Assembly: GCA_950295325.1 (NCBI GenBank) | Contig: OX485807.1 | Coordinates: forward strand, 34,316,440-34,380,439 | DNA from: Polytrichum commune | Taxonomy: Eukaryota; Streptophyta; Polytrichopsida; Polytrichales; Polytrichaceae | Reading direction: 5' to 3' | DNA length: 64,000 nucleotides | In this document: piece by piece, positions 22,831 through 61,173 of the stretch | Position numbering within the stretch: position 1 is the stretch's first letter | Layout of the letters: every line of letters begins with the position of its first letter | Made by a program: the position numbers and the translations under genes | Notes under the pieces: model-generated | What the model was told of the DNA's origin: nothing | Seen by the model: the letters and a program-made list of their open reading frames with translations, nothing else | The model's database searches: none

Positions 22831-23238
22831 CTCAGTAATCTTTCTGTCAGAAGATTGAATGGAGGGAGGGGGATTTTATTTCTGTCAAAACCTTTTTTAT
22901 TCATAAGTCAGTAAATTACAGCGAAGTCTCTTGACACTTCATGTAAAGAATTTAGAATATCAAAACACTTGGTTGTTTATTTACTGTTGTTAGGTTTTAA
23001 GTTCCCCATCTAGAATGCATAAGGTCAAATAAGACCGTTTGGTAGTTGAGCTAGCTTAGACTCTTCAAATTCCAACCACTTTTAGGTACCATCTAGTATA
23101 TGTGAGACATGGGTAAGATGTCATGCAACGATGAAAAGGTCACATATCTACCACATTGATAGATTTACAAATACTTCAATGACGTAAGACGAGTTGCTTA
23201 GGTCTCTCTTGCTAACAACATATATATGAGTCCCAGAG

Positions 23239-26147
23239 TAAACCTAATAAATGTCCACTTCGCTATAGAACAACAACGTGATACAAGATATGTTACCCCC
23301 GCTACAATTATACCAATGACACATATCTCTATCTACGAATGCAACCCCGAGAGTGATATAGAAACCAACGCCAACACTATACAAACACATTTTGATGTCG
23401 CCCACATATATGAAGATAATGGGCGACACCTCATCACCATCCCCAAAACCAAACTACATTGATTATGGAAACAATACCAACTCGTAAAAAACACCCCACA
23501 TGGACTAGAACCACCCACATAATCATTTGAAACTGAAATTGTATGGCTATACCAACGATACAAATACCGCATCCCAAAGAATGATTCTTTGAAACTAGCC
23601 CAATACACACTACCAACACCAACATTAAACTTCCTCACCACATCATTTAATGTTAACCACTCATACTTTTCATCTCCAGTCACATGCCCTATACACCTCA
23701 ACCAATTCTACTCACCATTTCCAAGAGACAAGATATTTGGATCCATAGGGAAAGCCTTCGACCATAAATGGAAAGGAATAAGATACGCCCACCCAAATAA
23801 TGCAACAGACCTACTACAGGCCATACATTGGGCTCGTCTTGCCGCCAAAATAGACCCATATACCATCACAATAATCATATCACTAGATACCAACTGGTAC
23901 CAAAACTCTGACCCACATTCCAATCCATACCTAGACACACATATCATCGCCCACTTTGCCGCATATACCATTACATACGAAGAACCCACTATACCACGAG
24001 AATTAAACATACCTAGAAAAGAACCTTCCTCAATACAAATATTCTGCATACACCACCAAATTAACACCATAGGAACCCACGACCAATTAAACCAACTCAC
24101 CTATATAGCAAACAATCTCTCAATACAACAACTACACACCCAAATTGCCACACATACTCCCCCAAGCACCCCTGTCAATGCTAGTAAAAAATGATCCAAA
24201 CTCAATTACCCAAATACCCCTTAATTCAATGTAACACCTATACCTCAACTACCTAACTATCAAACTAATTTACCACTAAAATTCCACCCACAATTTAGCT
24301 ACTACACCGATGGCTCATTCAAAAAACCTAAAGAAATCCTCCCAGGAACATGGAGAAGAGAAAAAGCAGGATATGGCATCTATAGTCCTAAAGGGCTTAG
24401 CATCTCCAAAAGACTACATGGTCATCAAAATATCCTACGTGCAAAAATGATTGTTATCCATGAAACACTACGAATTATTAATAACCAATACCCAAACGAA
24501 CCCGCATACATATTTACTGATAGTCTAAACGTACTATATCTACTAAACACACAAATTAAACACCCCACTCTACATAATAGTCACCCCGACCAAGTCACAC
24601 TCGCCTCCATGGTCCGACTGCTTCAAAACCGATCCCAACCTATCACACTCTACAAAATAAGGGCACATATCAACATAGACGGTAATGAACAAGCGGATAA
24701 ACTAGCAAAAGAAGGCCTAGGCCTACCTCACGAAAACGCTATACATCCATTCGAACATGCCAATGCTATACCATACTACTATCAAAAAGACGAATGGCCC
24801 TCTATGATAGACACACCAGACAAAGGCCCCGTTAGATTCCTAGAAAAATAAATTATAAAATACGATAGAATAAAAAACCTAGAACTTATGGCCACATACA
24901 CCCCTAATATCTATAAATGGACAGGAAATGCAAACATCGACAAAGAACTCTCCGATGAATTCTGGAACAACCATAATATTACAGACAAACAAAAATCATG
25001 CCTCATCAAATTTCGTACGGGAACTTACATGGGCCACGCCAGAAAACAACTCTTCTTTGGCAGGCAAAGATACCCTACCATTACTTGTCCTATCTGCAAC
25101 TCATATGAACCAGACATGTGGCTACACGTACTACTTACATGTAGACAACAACATATACACTCACTTCATGTTAAAAGACATAACAAAGCTGTATGGGAAA
25201 TAAGAAAAATGCTAATATTGTCCGAAAAATCCAGATGTTGCACTCTCATGAACGTTGGTACATTCAATAACAACCCCCAAGAAAACACCGTCCCTAACTG
25301 GCTATTACCATGTACATGTGGAACCCAAAGATGCCATTGTAACGCCCGATTTAGACCCGACATCCTCTGCGTTAAAGGGTTGCCATACCAAAACGAACCA
25401 CCCACAAATATTGACCAAAATCTTATCATACAATTCATTGAATTCACATACTATAACGACAAATTCTCACCGGAAACACTCGAAGCTAAAGCTAACAAAT
25501 ATAGACCCTTAATAGAAAACATAGCCGCTAGAGGCTCGAAAATTGACCCGATCATCGTTATTACGGCAGGCGCTAGAGCTGCAACACACACCCCATCAAT
25601 GAAAATACTTGAAGACAAATTCAAACTACCTATGTCAGCCATTCGAAACACCTTTAAAAACATACACACCATTGCCATACAATATGCCATGTCCATCCTC
25701 CTCCACAAAAGAAGATTAGAAAATAATCAACCTCTACCTCAATTACAAGACCCCCCTAGTCAACAAATAAATAATTAAATACTAAAAATATAATAATTAA
25801 AACCACATTAGTATATATCGGCAACGGGCACAATTCCCCTTGCCACGCAAAAGACGGACTGCTAGGTGACATAAACATCACACTCCCAATACTTACGCAA
25901 ACACACTCACCAGAATCTAAAACACCAAGAGTTAAAACCTTGCACCAAACAAATCCAAGACTAACCAGTCCTTATTGGGTACTGGTTCTATCTGTTACTG
26001 GTTACTTGTGACTATAGTGTCTACTCTCGAAAGGGGGAAGTAGTTCTATACCTCTATTCCTTTGTCCAGTGGACATAGGTCTAGGGGTGGAACGAACAAA
26101 CACTTCATTCACATCGGCCTCCTAACGGAGACCGGAGTTTCTCTTCT
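23239..26147 (+). mobile_element. 5'-truncated non-LTR retrotransposon with RNase H and restriction-like endonuclease
   Basis: A 2909-bp insertion is bounded by a 12-bp direct repeat TGAGTCCCAGAG (23227-23238 and 26148-26159), the TSD. One reading frame fills it from 23241 to 25778, then a roughly 370-bp 3' UTR ends ...GGAGTTTCTCTTCT without a poly(A) tail. The coding strand is very poor in G and T. The encoded RNase H, CCHC knuckle and restriction-like endonuclease place it among retrotransposons that use a C-terminal restriction-like endonuclease; RNase H combined with such an endonuclease is known from the Dualen/RandI group. No reverse transcriptase motif is present, which fits 5' truncation during target-primed insertion. 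The 3' flank is a hairpin (GAGTCCCAGAGCACAC with GTGTGCTCTGGGATTC at 26149-26217), so the insertion lies at the edge of an inverted repeat. A diverged relative is at 32937-33665. Confidence 0.9.
23241..25778 (+). pseudogene. Retrotransposon polyprotein C-terminal part: unknown domain, RNase H, CCHC, endonuclease
   Basis: 845 codons in one frame have no frameshift but five stops: TGA 23460, TAA 23520, TGA 24192, TAA 24222 and TAA 24849. Residues about 50-310 form an unrecognised domain with blocks PFPRDKIFGSIGKAF, GIRYAHP, AIHWARLAAK, DTNWYQN and HIIAHFAAYTITYEEP. RNase H follows: YTDGS (Asp at 24309), TDSLN (Asp at 24519) and GNEQAD (Asp at 24696). The second catalytic position, normally Glu, is Lys (AAA at 24444). 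The zinc knuckle is C-X2-C-X9-H-X4-C (25086-25142). The endonuclease has CTC...CHC, RPD (Asp at 25359), IEFTY (Glu at 25440) and EAKANKY, the order seen in R2-type restriction-like endonucleases. Several stops look like single changes from Trp or Gln codons. It is inactive in this copy. Confidence 0.88.
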
Positions 26148-26204
26148 TGAGTCCCAGAGCACACAAAGTATGGGTTTGCAAAAAATTGAGTTGTGTTGAA
26201 CGTG

Positions 26205-26490
26205 TGCTCTGGGATTCGTATCCTAGTAGGGTTTCCATGTAAAGGTTGTTTGAACTTATTAAGTGTTTGCCTTAAATGAGTCTTTCGCAAAATGTATAGA
26301 GAAGAGGCACATGTACAAGAGATGTTCCAATGGATTCAAGGACAAGTGAAAAAAGCCCATGAGTATCACCCAGTTAATGTCGTGGGCAAATCTATCACCA
26401 GGATAGATTTGCAATATTATTGGTTGTGTTGGGACTCATATGTTGGTAGTGATTTACATGTAAAGGTCGTTTAAACTATTTAAGCGTTTG
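26205..26490 (+). repeat. Direct duplication, period about 223 bp, in the retrotransposon 3' flank
   Basis: GGGATTCGTATCCTAGTAGG followed by CATGTAAAGGTTGTTTGAAC (from 26208) recurs as GGGACTCATATGTTGGTAG followed by CATGTAAAGGTCGTTTAAAC (from 26431). The retrotransposon TSD is part of the same repeat read on the other strand, so the insertion hit a pre-existing repeat. Confidence 0.7.
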
Positions 26491-32936: not shown

Positions 32937-33665
32937 CTTCGGGGTTTCTTTTTACACCAACGTGAATGGACGGCCGTTCCTCTATACGGTGATCATGTTT
33001 GACCAAGTGTCACCGTAAGGGTACTTCCTCCCTCTTGGAAGGTGGGCTCCTTTAGTTTTCAGAAAACGCGCTATACCTAACCTCTTTGGGGGGGGGGGGT
33101 TGTTTGTTGTCTAACTTTCTTTTGTTTGATATAAGGTATGTGAGGTATTTAATGGCAATTTGGTGTAGATGTTTCATAAGCGTTTTGATTTCGCTTTTGG
33201 GTATTTTGAGTTTTTCTAAGTCTTTAATTGGTTGTTCATGAAAAACCCCTCTAATGCTGGCTATGATGGTGATGAGAGGGTTGAGTTGCCATCTGGTTGT
33301 TCAGAGTGTTTTGATGAGTGGGTCGTATTTTCCGGATTTTTTCGTTGCGTGCGGTATTTGGGAATTTGTCGTGGCAATATGTGAATTCAATGAATTGTAT
33401 GACATTTGGTGGGGTTGGCGTTAAGGGGGGGGGGGTGGCTTTCAATGGGGGCGCCTAGTACTCATAGTATGTCTTGTCTAAATATGGCTAAGCATGTGCA
33501 TGGTGTGGTGGGACATGTACATTGGAGTAGCCATGGTGGGACTATGTTGTCTTGTGGTCTAGAGTTTTGGTTGTCTGCATTTATAAGGTGTAGAATCTTG
33601 TATGTTTACTTGATTGTAGTGTGTGTACGATTTGGTGGATTGCTTTATTATGGCGTCATAGTTGG
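32937..33665 (-). mobile_element. Relic of the RNase H/endonuclease non-LTR retrotransposon, 3' end
   Basis: The minus strand translates to text homologous to the C-terminus of the element at 23239. It has a RHHNKAI-like block, PPWLLQCTCPTTPCTC, FRQDIL (where the other copy has RPDI), then VIQFIEFTYCHDKF and a final NKRKLDN. Several frameshifts and stops break it, and both zinc-type CxC pairs persist. The downstream 150 bp (32937-33087) resemble the 3' UTR of the other copy. The coding strand is again C/A-rich, and two C runs (seen as G12 at 33088-33099 and G11 at 33425-33435 on the plus strand) interrupt it. It is an older insertion than 23239-26147. Confidence 0.85.
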
Positions 33666-54686: not shown

Positions 54687-56180
54687 GTAAGTATGTTGGT
54701 TTTGTGTGCATGGCTGTACGCACGAACTGTCGGTGTCGCATTTATATGTCGGTTAGATGAGATATAGTTTTCTCAAGGGTTATGTAGTCTTTGGTTTTAT
54801 CGTTCTTTTAGTTTGAACCGTGGTTTTGTTTTTATGTTGCTGTTCCAGTCTCTTTGCTTTAGGTGTTAGTCGTGCTTTATGGTTCATGCATTTTTTTCGC
54901 TCATATAGGCGTGCTTTGGTTCGTGCGTTTTAGAAGGCAAGTCGATATTTTGGTTATGGTCGTTTTATTTTGTAGGCGCGTTTTTATTTTCATTTTGTTG
55001 TTGATGATGTGCTGCGGGAGGTTTGGTCGAGTCGCCGTCCTTTTCAGGATTTTCTCCTATGGCGGTTTCTCGCTTTCATGCGAAGGGATTGGCCCGTTAT
55101 TCGTTCATGGGATGGTTTGTTTGTTTATGATTCGAATATTTTTGAATATTATATATTTTGCGGCGTGTGTGCGGTTTTGTTCCGTCTGTGCTCTCACTCG
55201 AGCTTTTCTCCTTCCAATGTGATGCATTAGTTATTGGTGAAGGTGTCCGTGTTTGGATCTGTTCGACCGTGTTTGCTGGATCTCCGACTTGCGGGATTTG
55301 TGCGCACTCCGCCTGGGCCCTTTTTTCGAATGACTCCAATGGGGAATGTTCCGCGTCTTGTGTGGCGGCGGTCTGTCTGTTGTTGATATCCTTTTTGTCT
55401 ATGATTTTTATTTGTGCTTGGGTTGTTGTCGTGATAAGATCTGAAATAGGTCACAAGGCCATCGTGTTGATGGCGCTGCTTTAATTTGTGTTGTTGTTTT
55501 CGGATGTTCATTGGTTGATGTGTGGGGGTGTGATTTCGATTCTATTCGTGGCTTCTGATGCGATTGGGGACCAGTTTGTTAAGTTTTGCATGTTCGATTA
55601 GGATTTAAGAAAATTCTAGACCTTGATGCATGTCATCGTTTCTAATAGTTGGTGTCTCATAATCGGTCATTGTTGTATATATTGTCTGTTTCCCCTCACG
55701 TGTCCCTAAAGTATGTAATATATGGCCCTTAGTTGTTATTATGACGTCACAGTGAATCTCTTATGTTTGATTCGTGGTTAGTTGTCGGGATGACAACAGC
55801 TACTCAACCTCGTATACCAAATGTGACTAGGCGTATGTCTGTGATGGTTGACCTTGCTTTTGGTGCCTGAAAATTTATTGTATGGTCAGATTTGGAGGAT
55901 TGGAAAAGCCATTGTCGTAGGCAACGTAGAAGAGGCTTGAAGCTGTGTGTGAATGGCAGACCTGTGTATGACCAGTTAACTTCCGATATGATGTCTGATT
56001 GAGTGGTCAGTTACAGCATAGTGGGTATGGTTTTTAAGTACTGGTGTGAACGAGTTAATAACAGTTTTTATGAGGTTGATTGCTGTGCCATCTGCATGGG
56101 ATCTTGACACTAGTGACGGTCGTTTCTGGAATGTTTCTATACCAGTATTTCTCACAAAGGTCTGGCCACTTTGGTACGCA
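54687..56180 (+). other. Probable intron in the cyclophilin 5' leader
   Basis: The donor is GTAAGT at 54687. The likely acceptor is TTTGGTACGCAG ending at 56180, which leaves AAACCGTCAAC before the start codon. Between them the sequence is T- and G-rich on the plus strand with no coding domain, as plant introns are, and unlike the DNA left of 54290. Several open frames of 60-119 codons inside have no domain. The upstream in-frame extension of the cyclophilin frame (56046-56192) would lie in this intron. Confidence 0.55.
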
Positions 56181-56192
56181 GAAACCGTCAAC

Positions 56193-56714
56193 ATGGCTCA
56201 TCAGAATCCCAAGGTTTTCTTCGACATCACCATCGGCGGTAACCCCGCTGGTCGCATTGTGATGGAGTTGTACGCTGACACCAACCCCAGGACCGCAGAG
56301 AACTTCCGTGCTCTGTGCACCGGAGAGAAGGGAAAGGGCAGGGCGAACAAGCCTCTGCACTTTAAGGATTCCAAGTTCCACCGTGTGATCCCCGACTTCA
56401 TGTGCCAGGGAGGTGACTTCACCAAGGGCAACGGTACCGGAGGAGAGTCCATCTACGGAGAGAAGTTTGCTGATGAGAACTTCATCAGGAAGCACACCGG
56501 ACCCGGAGTGTTGTCCATGGCTAACGCCGGACCTAACACCAACGGATCCCAGTTCTTCTTGTGCACAGTGGCCACCCCTTGGTTGGATGGCAAGCACTGC
56601 GTGTTTGGCCAGGTTGTCCAGGGTATGGATGTTGTAAGGGAAATCGAGAAGTTTGGTTCCTCAAGTGGAACCACCAAGAAGGCTGTGGTGATCAAGGACT
56701 GCGGCCAGTTGTAG
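56193..56714 (+). CDS. Cyclophilin, cytosolic peptidyl-prolyl cis-trans isomerase
   Basis: 173 residues, the usual length of single-domain plant cyclophilins. It catalyses cis-trans isomerisation of X-Pro bonds and binds cyclosporin A. All residues of the active pocket known from human cyclophilin A are present, shifted by nine: R64, F69, M70, Q72, A110, N111, Q120, F122, W130, L131 and H135. The shift comes partly from the plant-type divergent loop at about 47-55 (GKGRANKPL). Cys42 and Cys170, conserved in plant members, are present. There is no signal peptide or organelle presequence, so it is cytosolic. I chose ATG 56193 over the upstream ATG 56046 because homologous proteins start MA..NPKVFFD and the extension has no family counterpart. 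The coding region has no intron and is richer in GC than its flanks. Confidence 0.96.
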
Positions 56715-60460: not shown

Positions 60461-60530
60461 GGAATGGGCGAGAGGAGAGAGACGGGGGGGAGAGAGGGGC
60501 GGCCATGGAGGGGGTATAGCGAGGGCGAGC

Positions 60531-60538
60531 AAACCCTA
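60531..60538 (+). promoter_or_regulatory. Telo-box AAACCCTA upstream of eS10
   Basis: AAACCCTA lies 84 bases upstream of the start codon and is followed by GTTTTCTCTTTCACTC, a pyrimidine stretch. In plants the telo-box is typical of promoters of ribosomal protein and translation genes, and transcripts often start in such pyrimidine runs. Just upstream is a purine-rich run (GAGAGGAGAGAGACGGGGGG). The position supports co-regulation with other ribosomal protein genes. Confidence 0.75.
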
Positions 60539-60621
60539 GTTTTCTCTTTCACTCGCGGCACCAGCGCTTCGCTCGCTCCATACTCGCAGCAGCGGCGCTA
60601 TCGCCTCGCGACTTTGGCACC

Positions 60622-61173
60622 ATGTTGATCCCCAAGAAGAATCGCGTTGAGGTTTACAAGTATCTCTTCAAGGAGGGTGTGCTGTACGCCAAGAAGGATT
60701 ACAATGCCCCCAAGCACCCCGAGATTGATGTGCCCAACCTACAGGTCATCAAGCTCATGCAGAGCTTCAAGAGCAAGGAGTACGTCAAGGAGTCCTTCGC
60801 ATGGAGGCACTACTACTGGTACCTCACCAACGACGGCATTGAGCATCTGCGCACGTACTTGAACTTGCCTTCCGAAATTGTGCCCGCCACTTTGAAGAAG
60901 TCGGCACGGCCGCCTACCAGGCCCATGGGCGGAGCTCCAGGAGGCGATCGTCCACCCAGGGGACCCCCCAGGGAAGGAGAGAGGCCACGATTCGGTGACC
61001 GTGAGGGATACCGGAGTGGTGCACCCCGTGGAGCACCGGGTGCCTTTGGAGGTGAGAAGGGCGGAGCCCCTGGAGAATACAGACCCGAGTTCCGTGGACC
61101 CCCCAGGGGAGGGTTTGGCCGTGGAGGAGGTGGCTTCGGAGGAGGCGCTCCCGGTGCTCCTTCCGCCGAGTAG
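60622..61173 (+). CDS. RPS10: 40S ribosomal protein eS10
   Basis: 183 residues, the length usual for plant eS10. Residues about 3-97 form the S10/plectin domain: [19 protein letters not shown], then [18 protein letters not shown] and [12 protein letters not shown], all strongly conserved. The tail (about 98-183) is Arg/Gly/Pro-rich with repeats of GAP and RGG-like units, as in plants. eS10 sits at the head and beak of the small ribosomal subunit. The ATG at 60622 is the standard family start and follows GGCACC. No intron interrupts the coding region, whereas many plant eS10 genes have introns; a retrocopy is possible but the promoter-like telo-box region argues for a working gene. GC-rich codon use matches the cyclophilin gene. 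Confidence 0.96.

Follow-up and report, generated by a model that had tools for sequence, protein, structure and literature searches.

A 64,000-nucleotide stretch of the genome of the moss Polytrichum commune (contig OX485807.1, positions 34,316,440 to 34,380,439 of the forward strand; "the window" in the following) contains, at 23239 to 26147, a copy of a long interspersed element (LINE). Based on this copy and its relatives elsewhere in the genome, we conclude that the element is very probably an abundant, recently mobile non-LTR (non-long-terminal-repeat) retrotransposon of the Dualen/RandI kind, of which the window holds a 5′-truncated, dead representative. Longer copies carry in one open reading frame (ORF2) landmarks of an apurinic endonuclease (APE), a reverse transcriptase (RT), an RNase H and a presumed restriction-like endonuclease (RLE), and the families sharing this plan are referred to as the dual-endonuclease lineage.

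The truncated copy and its full-length relatives

The first-pass annotation of the window, made from the letters alone, had proposed an exact 12-bp target-site duplication around this interval, and TGAGTCCCAGAG indeed stands on both sides of it, with the alignment to a full-length relative starting at base 23240, directly behind the 5′ duplication copy. The proposal of a single reading frame held: from 23241 to the stop at 25776 no frameshift occurs and the frame is collinear with the full-length relatives, but it is not intact, as it contains five premature stops (codons starting at 23460, 23520, 24192, 24222 and 24849). Also recovered in this frame were the RNase H (Pfam RNase_H, 1.2e-11), the CCHC knuckle and the RPD..EFT..K..KY motif of that early description. 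The window protein is 77% identical to the protein of the full-length copy L009 over 839 residues, and a Glu in the RNase H of the relatives (RAE) is replaced by Lys (RAK). The window copy is a dead, 5′-truncated element and cannot show an APE because of the truncation. Its features are, by window position:

23227..23238, plus strand: 5′ target-site duplication copy, 12 bp, TGAGTCCCAGAG, exact match to the 3′ copy
23239..26147, plus strand: 5′-truncated, degenerate dual-endonuclease LINE copy; ORF2 from L009 codon 1787 to its end, and 3′ untranslated region (UTR)
23526..23819, plus strand: PCIF1-like (PCIF1_WW) segment; PF12237, 1.2e-10, over the curated cut-off
23790-23801, plus strand: HPNN, the equivalent of NPPF, from alignments to PCIF1 and relatives
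24294..24716, plus strand: RNase H domain; PF00075, 1.2e-11
25086..25142, plus strand: CCHC zinc knuckle, C-x2-C-x9-H-x4-C; motif and alignment of copies
25311..25340, plus strand: second cysteine cluster, C-x-C-x4-C-x-C; motif and alignment of copies
25353..25580, plus strand: presumed restriction-like endonuclease core, PD-x26-ExT-x13-K-x2-KY; motif, conservation among copies, purifying selection
25990..26142, plus strand: structured 3′ end of the element RNA, common to subfamilies; folding and covariation
26143..26147, plus strand: end of the pyrimidine-rich tail, CTTCT in the window copy; longer TTC-rich or (TATC)n tails elsewhere
26148..26159, plus strand: 3′ target-site duplication copy, 12 bp, TGAGTCCCAGAG, exact match to the 5′ copy

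The 408-Mb assembly (64 contigs, the window being located on contig C5) was searched with the C-terminal 308 residues of the window protein. All 128 scored relatives matched at E ≤ 1.1e-162, and this count is a lower bound, as only the best 128 of 5404 first-look candidates were scored. The relatives are spread over all seven large contigs, an argument against contamination. Three full-length copies are intact, on C5 (L009 with L013), C2 (L010 with L014) and C1 (L015), each with an open ORF2 of 2,625 codons in which the first Met is codon 50. The C5 copy is 99.1% identical to the C2 copy over 12.0 kb and 99.1% identical to the C1 copy over 9.7 kb; between the duplications, the C5 and C2 copies measure about 12.5 kb and about 12.0 kb, respectively. 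ORF1 is a 747-codon frame in two of the three, its end overlapping the start of the open ORF2 frame, and for the third copy its last 461 codons are within the sequence read. No Pfam match over the cut-off was found for ORF1, and its best match among solved structures (0.071) was to unrelated proteins. The 5′ UTR of the full-length copies (L013, L014) contains repeats, the number of which differs between the C5 and C2 copies. A second family (L037, L038) has the same domain plan and an RT 62% identical to that of L009, and a further subfamily of the lineage is present besides these two families. One more fragment of the lineage, more decayed, lies in the window itself (33088-33655, minus strand) and is nearer the second family (86 residues, 60% identical to L037).

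Recent mobility of the L009 family is evident from its intact frames, its variable tail lengths and the 97-100% identity of all 40 scored copies of the 3′ UTR (the best 40 of 1869 candidates). Clustering of these young copies was not seen (Kolmogorov-Smirnov p = 0.22; contig counts p = 0.57) when 37 of the 40 on six contigs were tested, three copies on C7 being left out and the 40 being the best-scored copies, not a random sample. Viral contigs scanned with profiles A1, A3, A6 and A4 yielded no confirmed relative in any of the four scans.

Domain order and constraint in ORF2

The RT to be looked for upstream of the truncated part, according to the first-pass annotation, was found in the longer copies; the refuting case named there, full-length copies lacking an RT, was not encountered. 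Along ORF2 the order is a 2A (StopGo) motif, APE, RT, a chromodomain-like segment, a PCIF1-like segment, RNase H, CCHC and the presumed RLE. Codon positions in L009 are as follows, with landmarks placed by motif and domains by Pfam:

277: 2A motif GDIEPNPGP (landmark)
502-751: APE landmarks
1121-1387: RT; Pfam PF00078, 1.1e-29
within 1701-1790: chromodomain-like segment
1871-1966: PCIF1-like segment; PCIF1_WW, 3.6e-10
2139-2279: RNase H, 7.3e-13
from 2402: CCHC
2489, 2519 and 2538: RFRPD, IEFTY and NKY of the presumed RLE

In the second family, PF00078 detects the RT of L037 at 1.4e-32, and the APE of the same copy exceeds the Pfam cut-off (Exo_endo_phos_2, PF14529, 9.7e-8). The related family Exo_endo_phos (PF03372) stays below the cut-off there and in L038 (4.6e-5). 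RNase H is over the Pfam cut-off in the window copy, L009, L010 and L037; read by eye, that of L009 keeps the His of D-E-D-H-D (KVRAH..GNE.AD). With an RT upstream and an APE in the longer copies, the dual-endonuclease plan is therefore present as far as motifs go. The 2A motif, which reportedly occurs in APE-type LINEs, was found in six of seven loci examined (L009, L010, L015, L011, L037, L038) and not in L012, a locus broken upstream. L038 has two such motifs (at 292 and 1093), and so does L037 (at 672 and 1108). In L038 both (HGDIELNPGP and SGDIEINPGP) lie in one open frame, in L037 the first is in another frame, and the 2A-bearing leader of these two loci may be tandemly repeated.

Conservation of the C-terminal domain was assessed in an alignment of six copies, the window copy and five others with 42-81% identity to it. 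Invariant in all six are the residues of the CCHC, of the second cysteine cluster (C-x-C-x4-C-x-C) and of PD, E-x-T and K-x2-KY; L038 has Lys in place of the Arg that precedes PD. Among all loci retrieved, counting each copy once and leaving aside L042, where this part is missing, 26 distinct copies can be read across the whole motif, and 23 of them have every one of its seven conserved residues (PD, E, T, K, K and Y). The CCHC is readable in 28 distinct copies and complete in 26, L004 and L005 having lost residues of it; the second cysteine cluster is complete in all 29 distinct copies in which it can be read. L053-L055 are cut short, with PD in two of them and LD in L053. The domain is presumably a restriction-like (PD-(D/E)XK) endonuclease, with a putative nuclease fold and activity.

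Selection was estimated as dN/dS by Nei-Gojobori counting of changes; the ratios are rough because dS is mostly near or above 1. Between L009 and L011, dN/dS is 0.063-0.117 in all nine ORF2 sections (APE 0.087, RT 0.063, PCIF1-like 0.073, RNase H 0.091, CCHC-RLE 0.066). The range is 0.057-0.105 for L009 and the window copy (five sections), 0.073-0.228 for L009 and L012 (seven sections) and 0.049-0.171 for L037 and L038 (five sections). L009 and L037 are saturated, with three of nine sections not computable and values of 0.21-0.58 in the rest. Both nucleases are under purifying selection and have been kept together.

The PCIF1-like segment is over the PCIF1_WW cut-off in the window copy, L009 and L010, and below it in L037 (3.0e-6) and L038 (7.2e-6). 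When the moss genome was searched with PF12237, all 150 scored matches, the best 150 of 697 candidates, exceeded the cut-off (best 1.1e-12), and the three that were read on all continue into the RNase H and knuckle of the dual-endonuclease lineage; none of 14 control genomes had a match. Among solved structures, the only matches up to E = 10 were two PCIF1 sequences (0.084 and 0.2 for the L009 segment, 0.0081 and 0.3 for the profile), which are weak alone and gain weight because the Pfam matches agree. PCIF1 is the cap-specific m6Am (N6,2′-O-dimethyladenosine) methyltransferase, and its catalytic motif is NPPF. This motif is absent in all nine sequences read: the position is HPHN in L009, L011, L012 and L055, HPNN in the window copy, FPTD in L037, HPKD in L038 and HPPN in L053 and L054, the second-place Pro alone being kept throughout. 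Since NPPF is missing, the segment is probably a pseudo-enzyme, i.e., a dead methyltransferase fold. No LINE with a PCIF1 segment was found in the accessible part of the open literature.

Between the RT and the PCIF1-like part lies a segment that is likely chromodomain-like. Pfam Chromo matched 90-residue pieces of L037 (0.0014), L038 (0.0032) and L009 (0.053); with whole proteins it scored 0.12 in each of L037 and L038, and no Chromo match was listed for L009 or L010. A profile of five copies, run against solved structures, found chromodomain proteins in 15 of 16 matches up to E = 10 (best 0.0075), and all five segments share YLCQW and, further on, a W. The aromatic cage seems incomplete. No LINE with a chromodomain was found in the accessible part of the open literature on chromodomains and non-LTR elements.

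Duplications, tails and the 3′ end

Target-site duplications are present in seven of nine copies examined, and in six the longest exact match is 12 bp. L004 was left out of this count, its apparent 5′ junction being the edge of a sequence piece. In addition to TGAGTCCCAGAG of the window copy, the duplications are:

C5 copy (L009): TTTGAATTAGGA
C2 copy (L010): TCCATTCTTAAC
L042: TACTTGGTGTTA; the final base may be part of the element
L006: TGGATTTAGCAA
second copy in L014: TAGGCCATACAC; the end overlaps the alignment start by about six bases
L003: TCTCGTGGCATTGA; 14 bp exact, 12 with a possible two-base overlap, the first bases also fitting the tail

A fixed stagger of 12 bp is likely. Targeting of a specific site, as in R2 or Utopia, was considered and rejected, as a first T is all that the seven duplications have in common. 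It was noticed afterwards, in these seven cases, that all of them start with this T if that of L003 is read as 12 bp. The tail, too, has T or C as its last base, so the shared T may stem from base pairing between RNA tail and target when priming starts.

Copies of the L009 family end in (TATC)n tails that vary in length, and those of the window family in TTC-rich ones. Upstream of the tails, the subfamilies can be aligned over the last 150 bases (72%) but not over the preceding spacer. A structure of 45 pairs is shared by eight 3′ ends, and 96.4% of its cells pair compared to 91.6% after shuffling. Changes on both sides occur in 11 of the 45 pairs compared to 4.3 after shuffling, a value reached in none of 500 shuffles, and sliding the partners as a control lowers pairing to 32-52%. 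The measure of further pair types is not exceptional (91 of 500 shuffles). Applied to 17 sources, an RNA model of this end gave strong matches in ten, including the window, which is also in the model, and did not match L037 or L038; in the remaining five sources no 3′ end of the dual-endonuclease lineage is known. Due to the missing match in L037 and L038, we claim the structure for the window/L009 side only.

The target of the window insertion (26167-26490) lies in a diverged local repeat, in which 26232-26269 occurs again at 26453-26490 (84%), and inverted partners are found nearby (26149-26164 with 26202-26217, and 23215-23235 with 26430-26450). Perhaps an old inverted-repeat element was hit by the insertion. 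Elsewhere in the window, two open frames on the plus strand, named by eye, resemble a cyclophilin (peptidyl-prolyl isomerase) gene (56022-56714) and ribosomal protein eS10 (60520-61173). LEAFY was detected in the genome by four matches of PF01698 over the cut-off and six exon matches of PF17538, as fits a streptophyte. Its DNA-binding exons are of two types, KMRDYVHC in L019 and KMRHYVHC in L018, an Asp/His difference at position 312, KMRDYVHC being the moss type.

Placement, proposed mechanism and comparison with known systems

Judged by its sequence, the RT is on the R2 side of the R2/L1 split. Among solved structures, the RT of L009 matched R2 best (1.9e-25) and L1 at 3.4e-13 to 1.8e-12, whereas a control L1-type RT of the same genome gave the reverse (L1 6.9e-36, R2 1.4e-16). 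In a tree of 16 rows with R2 and L1 as the only references, seven RTs of the dual-endonuclease lineage group at 100/100 and six L1 RTs (five from this genome, one human) at 100/99, with R2 and the dual-endonuclease lineage on the other side. As the tree has long branches, short fragments and odd composition, and as R2 does not form a single group in it (28% of bootstraps), no more than this side of the split is claimed.

The first-pass annotation had suggested a plant element of or beside Dualen/RandI, and the RT upstream in longer copies and the APE over the cut-off in L037 speak for this. Dualen (RandI) is set apart by an APE together with a PD-(D/E)XK-like nuclease, and RNase H is described for it too (excerpts of PMC3636483 and PMC4640811). 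Compared by this published description, the moss element likely is a member of Dualen/RandI.

Several observations weigh against this placement and the domain assignments behind it. Kinship by descent with Dualen is putative, the comparison being with its published description. The APE of L009 has no Pfam match up to E = 1, and that of L010 remains below the cut-off (Exo_endo_phos, PF03372, 0.00088). The window protein, profile A1 and the two-family profile A3 gave no relevant match among solved structures, R2 included, and AlphaFold single-sequence models of the window RLE, of 275 and 151 residues, reached a mean pLDDT (predicted local distance difference test) of 34.4 and 41.6; as no solved relative matched and the models are poor, the fold of the RLE stays putative. 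In L003, L005 and L047 the Asp of PD is gone, and in L053 its Pro; we read these copies as decayed. The chromodomain match is below the 25.1-bit cut-off throughout and missing in L011 and L012, and no duplication was found for these two loci. Finally, a cysteine protease, which Chlamydomonas Dualen is said to contain, was not detected by Pfam in ORF2 of L009, L010, L037 and L038, in three L009 ORF2 sections, in the L037 N-terminus or in ORF1, where a divergent one could be missed.

A separate early RLE clade on the R2/NeSL/Utopia side, with its own gain of APE and RNase H independent of Dualen, would agree with an RT that sits with R2 against L1, with the chromodomain-like and PCIF1-like segments and 2A, none of which is known from Dualen, and with the undetected protease. 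However, the combination of APE and RLE distinguishes Dualen in the literature, which also describes RNase H for it (excerpts of PMC3636483 and PMC4640811), and a second independent origin is less economical; we regard such a clade as unlikely. Horizontal acquisition of the same element from a chlorophyte alga or other protist, in place of inheritance in the green lineage, is quite improbable. Dualen has been reported from Chlamydomonas relatives (excerpt of PMC8226300) and cryptophytes (excerpt of PMC12747079), and no report of a land-plant or moss Dualen was found among the entries listed from the open literature, which misses most subscription papers, but two families at 62% RT identity and a further subfamily argue for long residence. 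That the element is a plant L1 with an archaeal-type RNase H and an unrelated C-terminal domain is hardly credible: plant L1s do carry RNase H, but the archaeal type is said to have Arg in place of the His kept here (excerpt of PMC4640811), and the RT is nearer R2, in a group of its own that excludes the five L1-type RTs from this genome.

For the preferred reading, an element of the Dualen/RandI kind, we infer the following cycle from the observed domain order, the constraint on both nucleases, the duplications, the tails and the covarying 3′ RNA structure. A long RNA with two frames would be made, and the 2A motif, if active, would free an N-terminal leader from the ORF2 product. The ORF2 protein would bind the structured 3′ end of its own RNA, one of the two endonucleases, whichever it may be, would nick the target, and the RT would prime on the simple-repeat 3′ tail. 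The RNA template would then be removed by RNase H, and a second nick, offset from the first by a constant stagger, would lead to a duplication of about 12 bp. Both the chromodomain-like and the PCIF1-like segment would be captured, probably non-catalytic binding modules, for chromatin in the one case and capped RNA or the polymerase II tail in the other. The full proposal is tentative and on balance doubtful: land plants would have their own mobile branch of dual-endonuclease LINEs, in which both nucleases are needed, making one nick each at a 12-bp stagger, with a captured dead PCIF1-type fold holding the capped RNA end or the polymerase II tail and with a chromatin module.

Dualen has been read as the relic of a step at which LINEs swapped one endonuclease for another. 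An abundant, recently mobile streptophyte lineage with both nucleases under constraint would make this swap testable in a plant, and the structured 3′ end and the 12-bp stagger are defined substrates for priming and cutting tests. A pseudo-PCIF1 and a chromodomain-like segment would be an unusual capture of RNA-modification and chromatin-reader folds by a LINE. A tether to RNA end and chromatin, if true, was not found described for a LINE in the accessible part of the open literature.

Compared with PCIF1 itself, the moss segment exceeds the PCIF1_WW cut-off and differs in the replaced NPPF, catalysis probably being lost. R2 has the nearest solved RT, and its nuclease is resembled by the C-terminal CCHC followed by RPD..E.T..K..KY, a likeness judged from the motif. 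R2 is specific for a site in ribosomal DNA and is not known to have an APE or RNase H, whereas the moss element has both, and its seven duplications are without a common motif beyond the first T. Utopia of oomycetes combines an RLE with an RNase H, as the moss element presumably does, but its RNase H is upstream of the RT and has Arg for His, and its target is the U2 gene (excerpt of PMC4640811); in the moss element the RNase H is downstream of the RT and has the His. Insertion into U2 small nuclear RNA genes is not indicated, the seven duplications being unrelated in sequence, with flanks not searched for U2 genes. Like Dualen/RandI, the moss element joins an APE to an RT, an RNase H and, presumably, an RLE, and has simple-repeat 3′ tails. 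Apparent differences are the streptophyte host, a 2A motif, the two added segments (chromodomain-like and PCIF1-like) located downstream of the RT and upstream of the RNase H, and a cysteine protease that Dualen is said to contain and that was not detected here. For RandI, matching tails, (CTTT)n and (ATT)n, are described from short interspersed elements of Chlamydomonas (excerpt of PMC3747384). Green algae are the best-known hosts of the dual-endonuclease plan.

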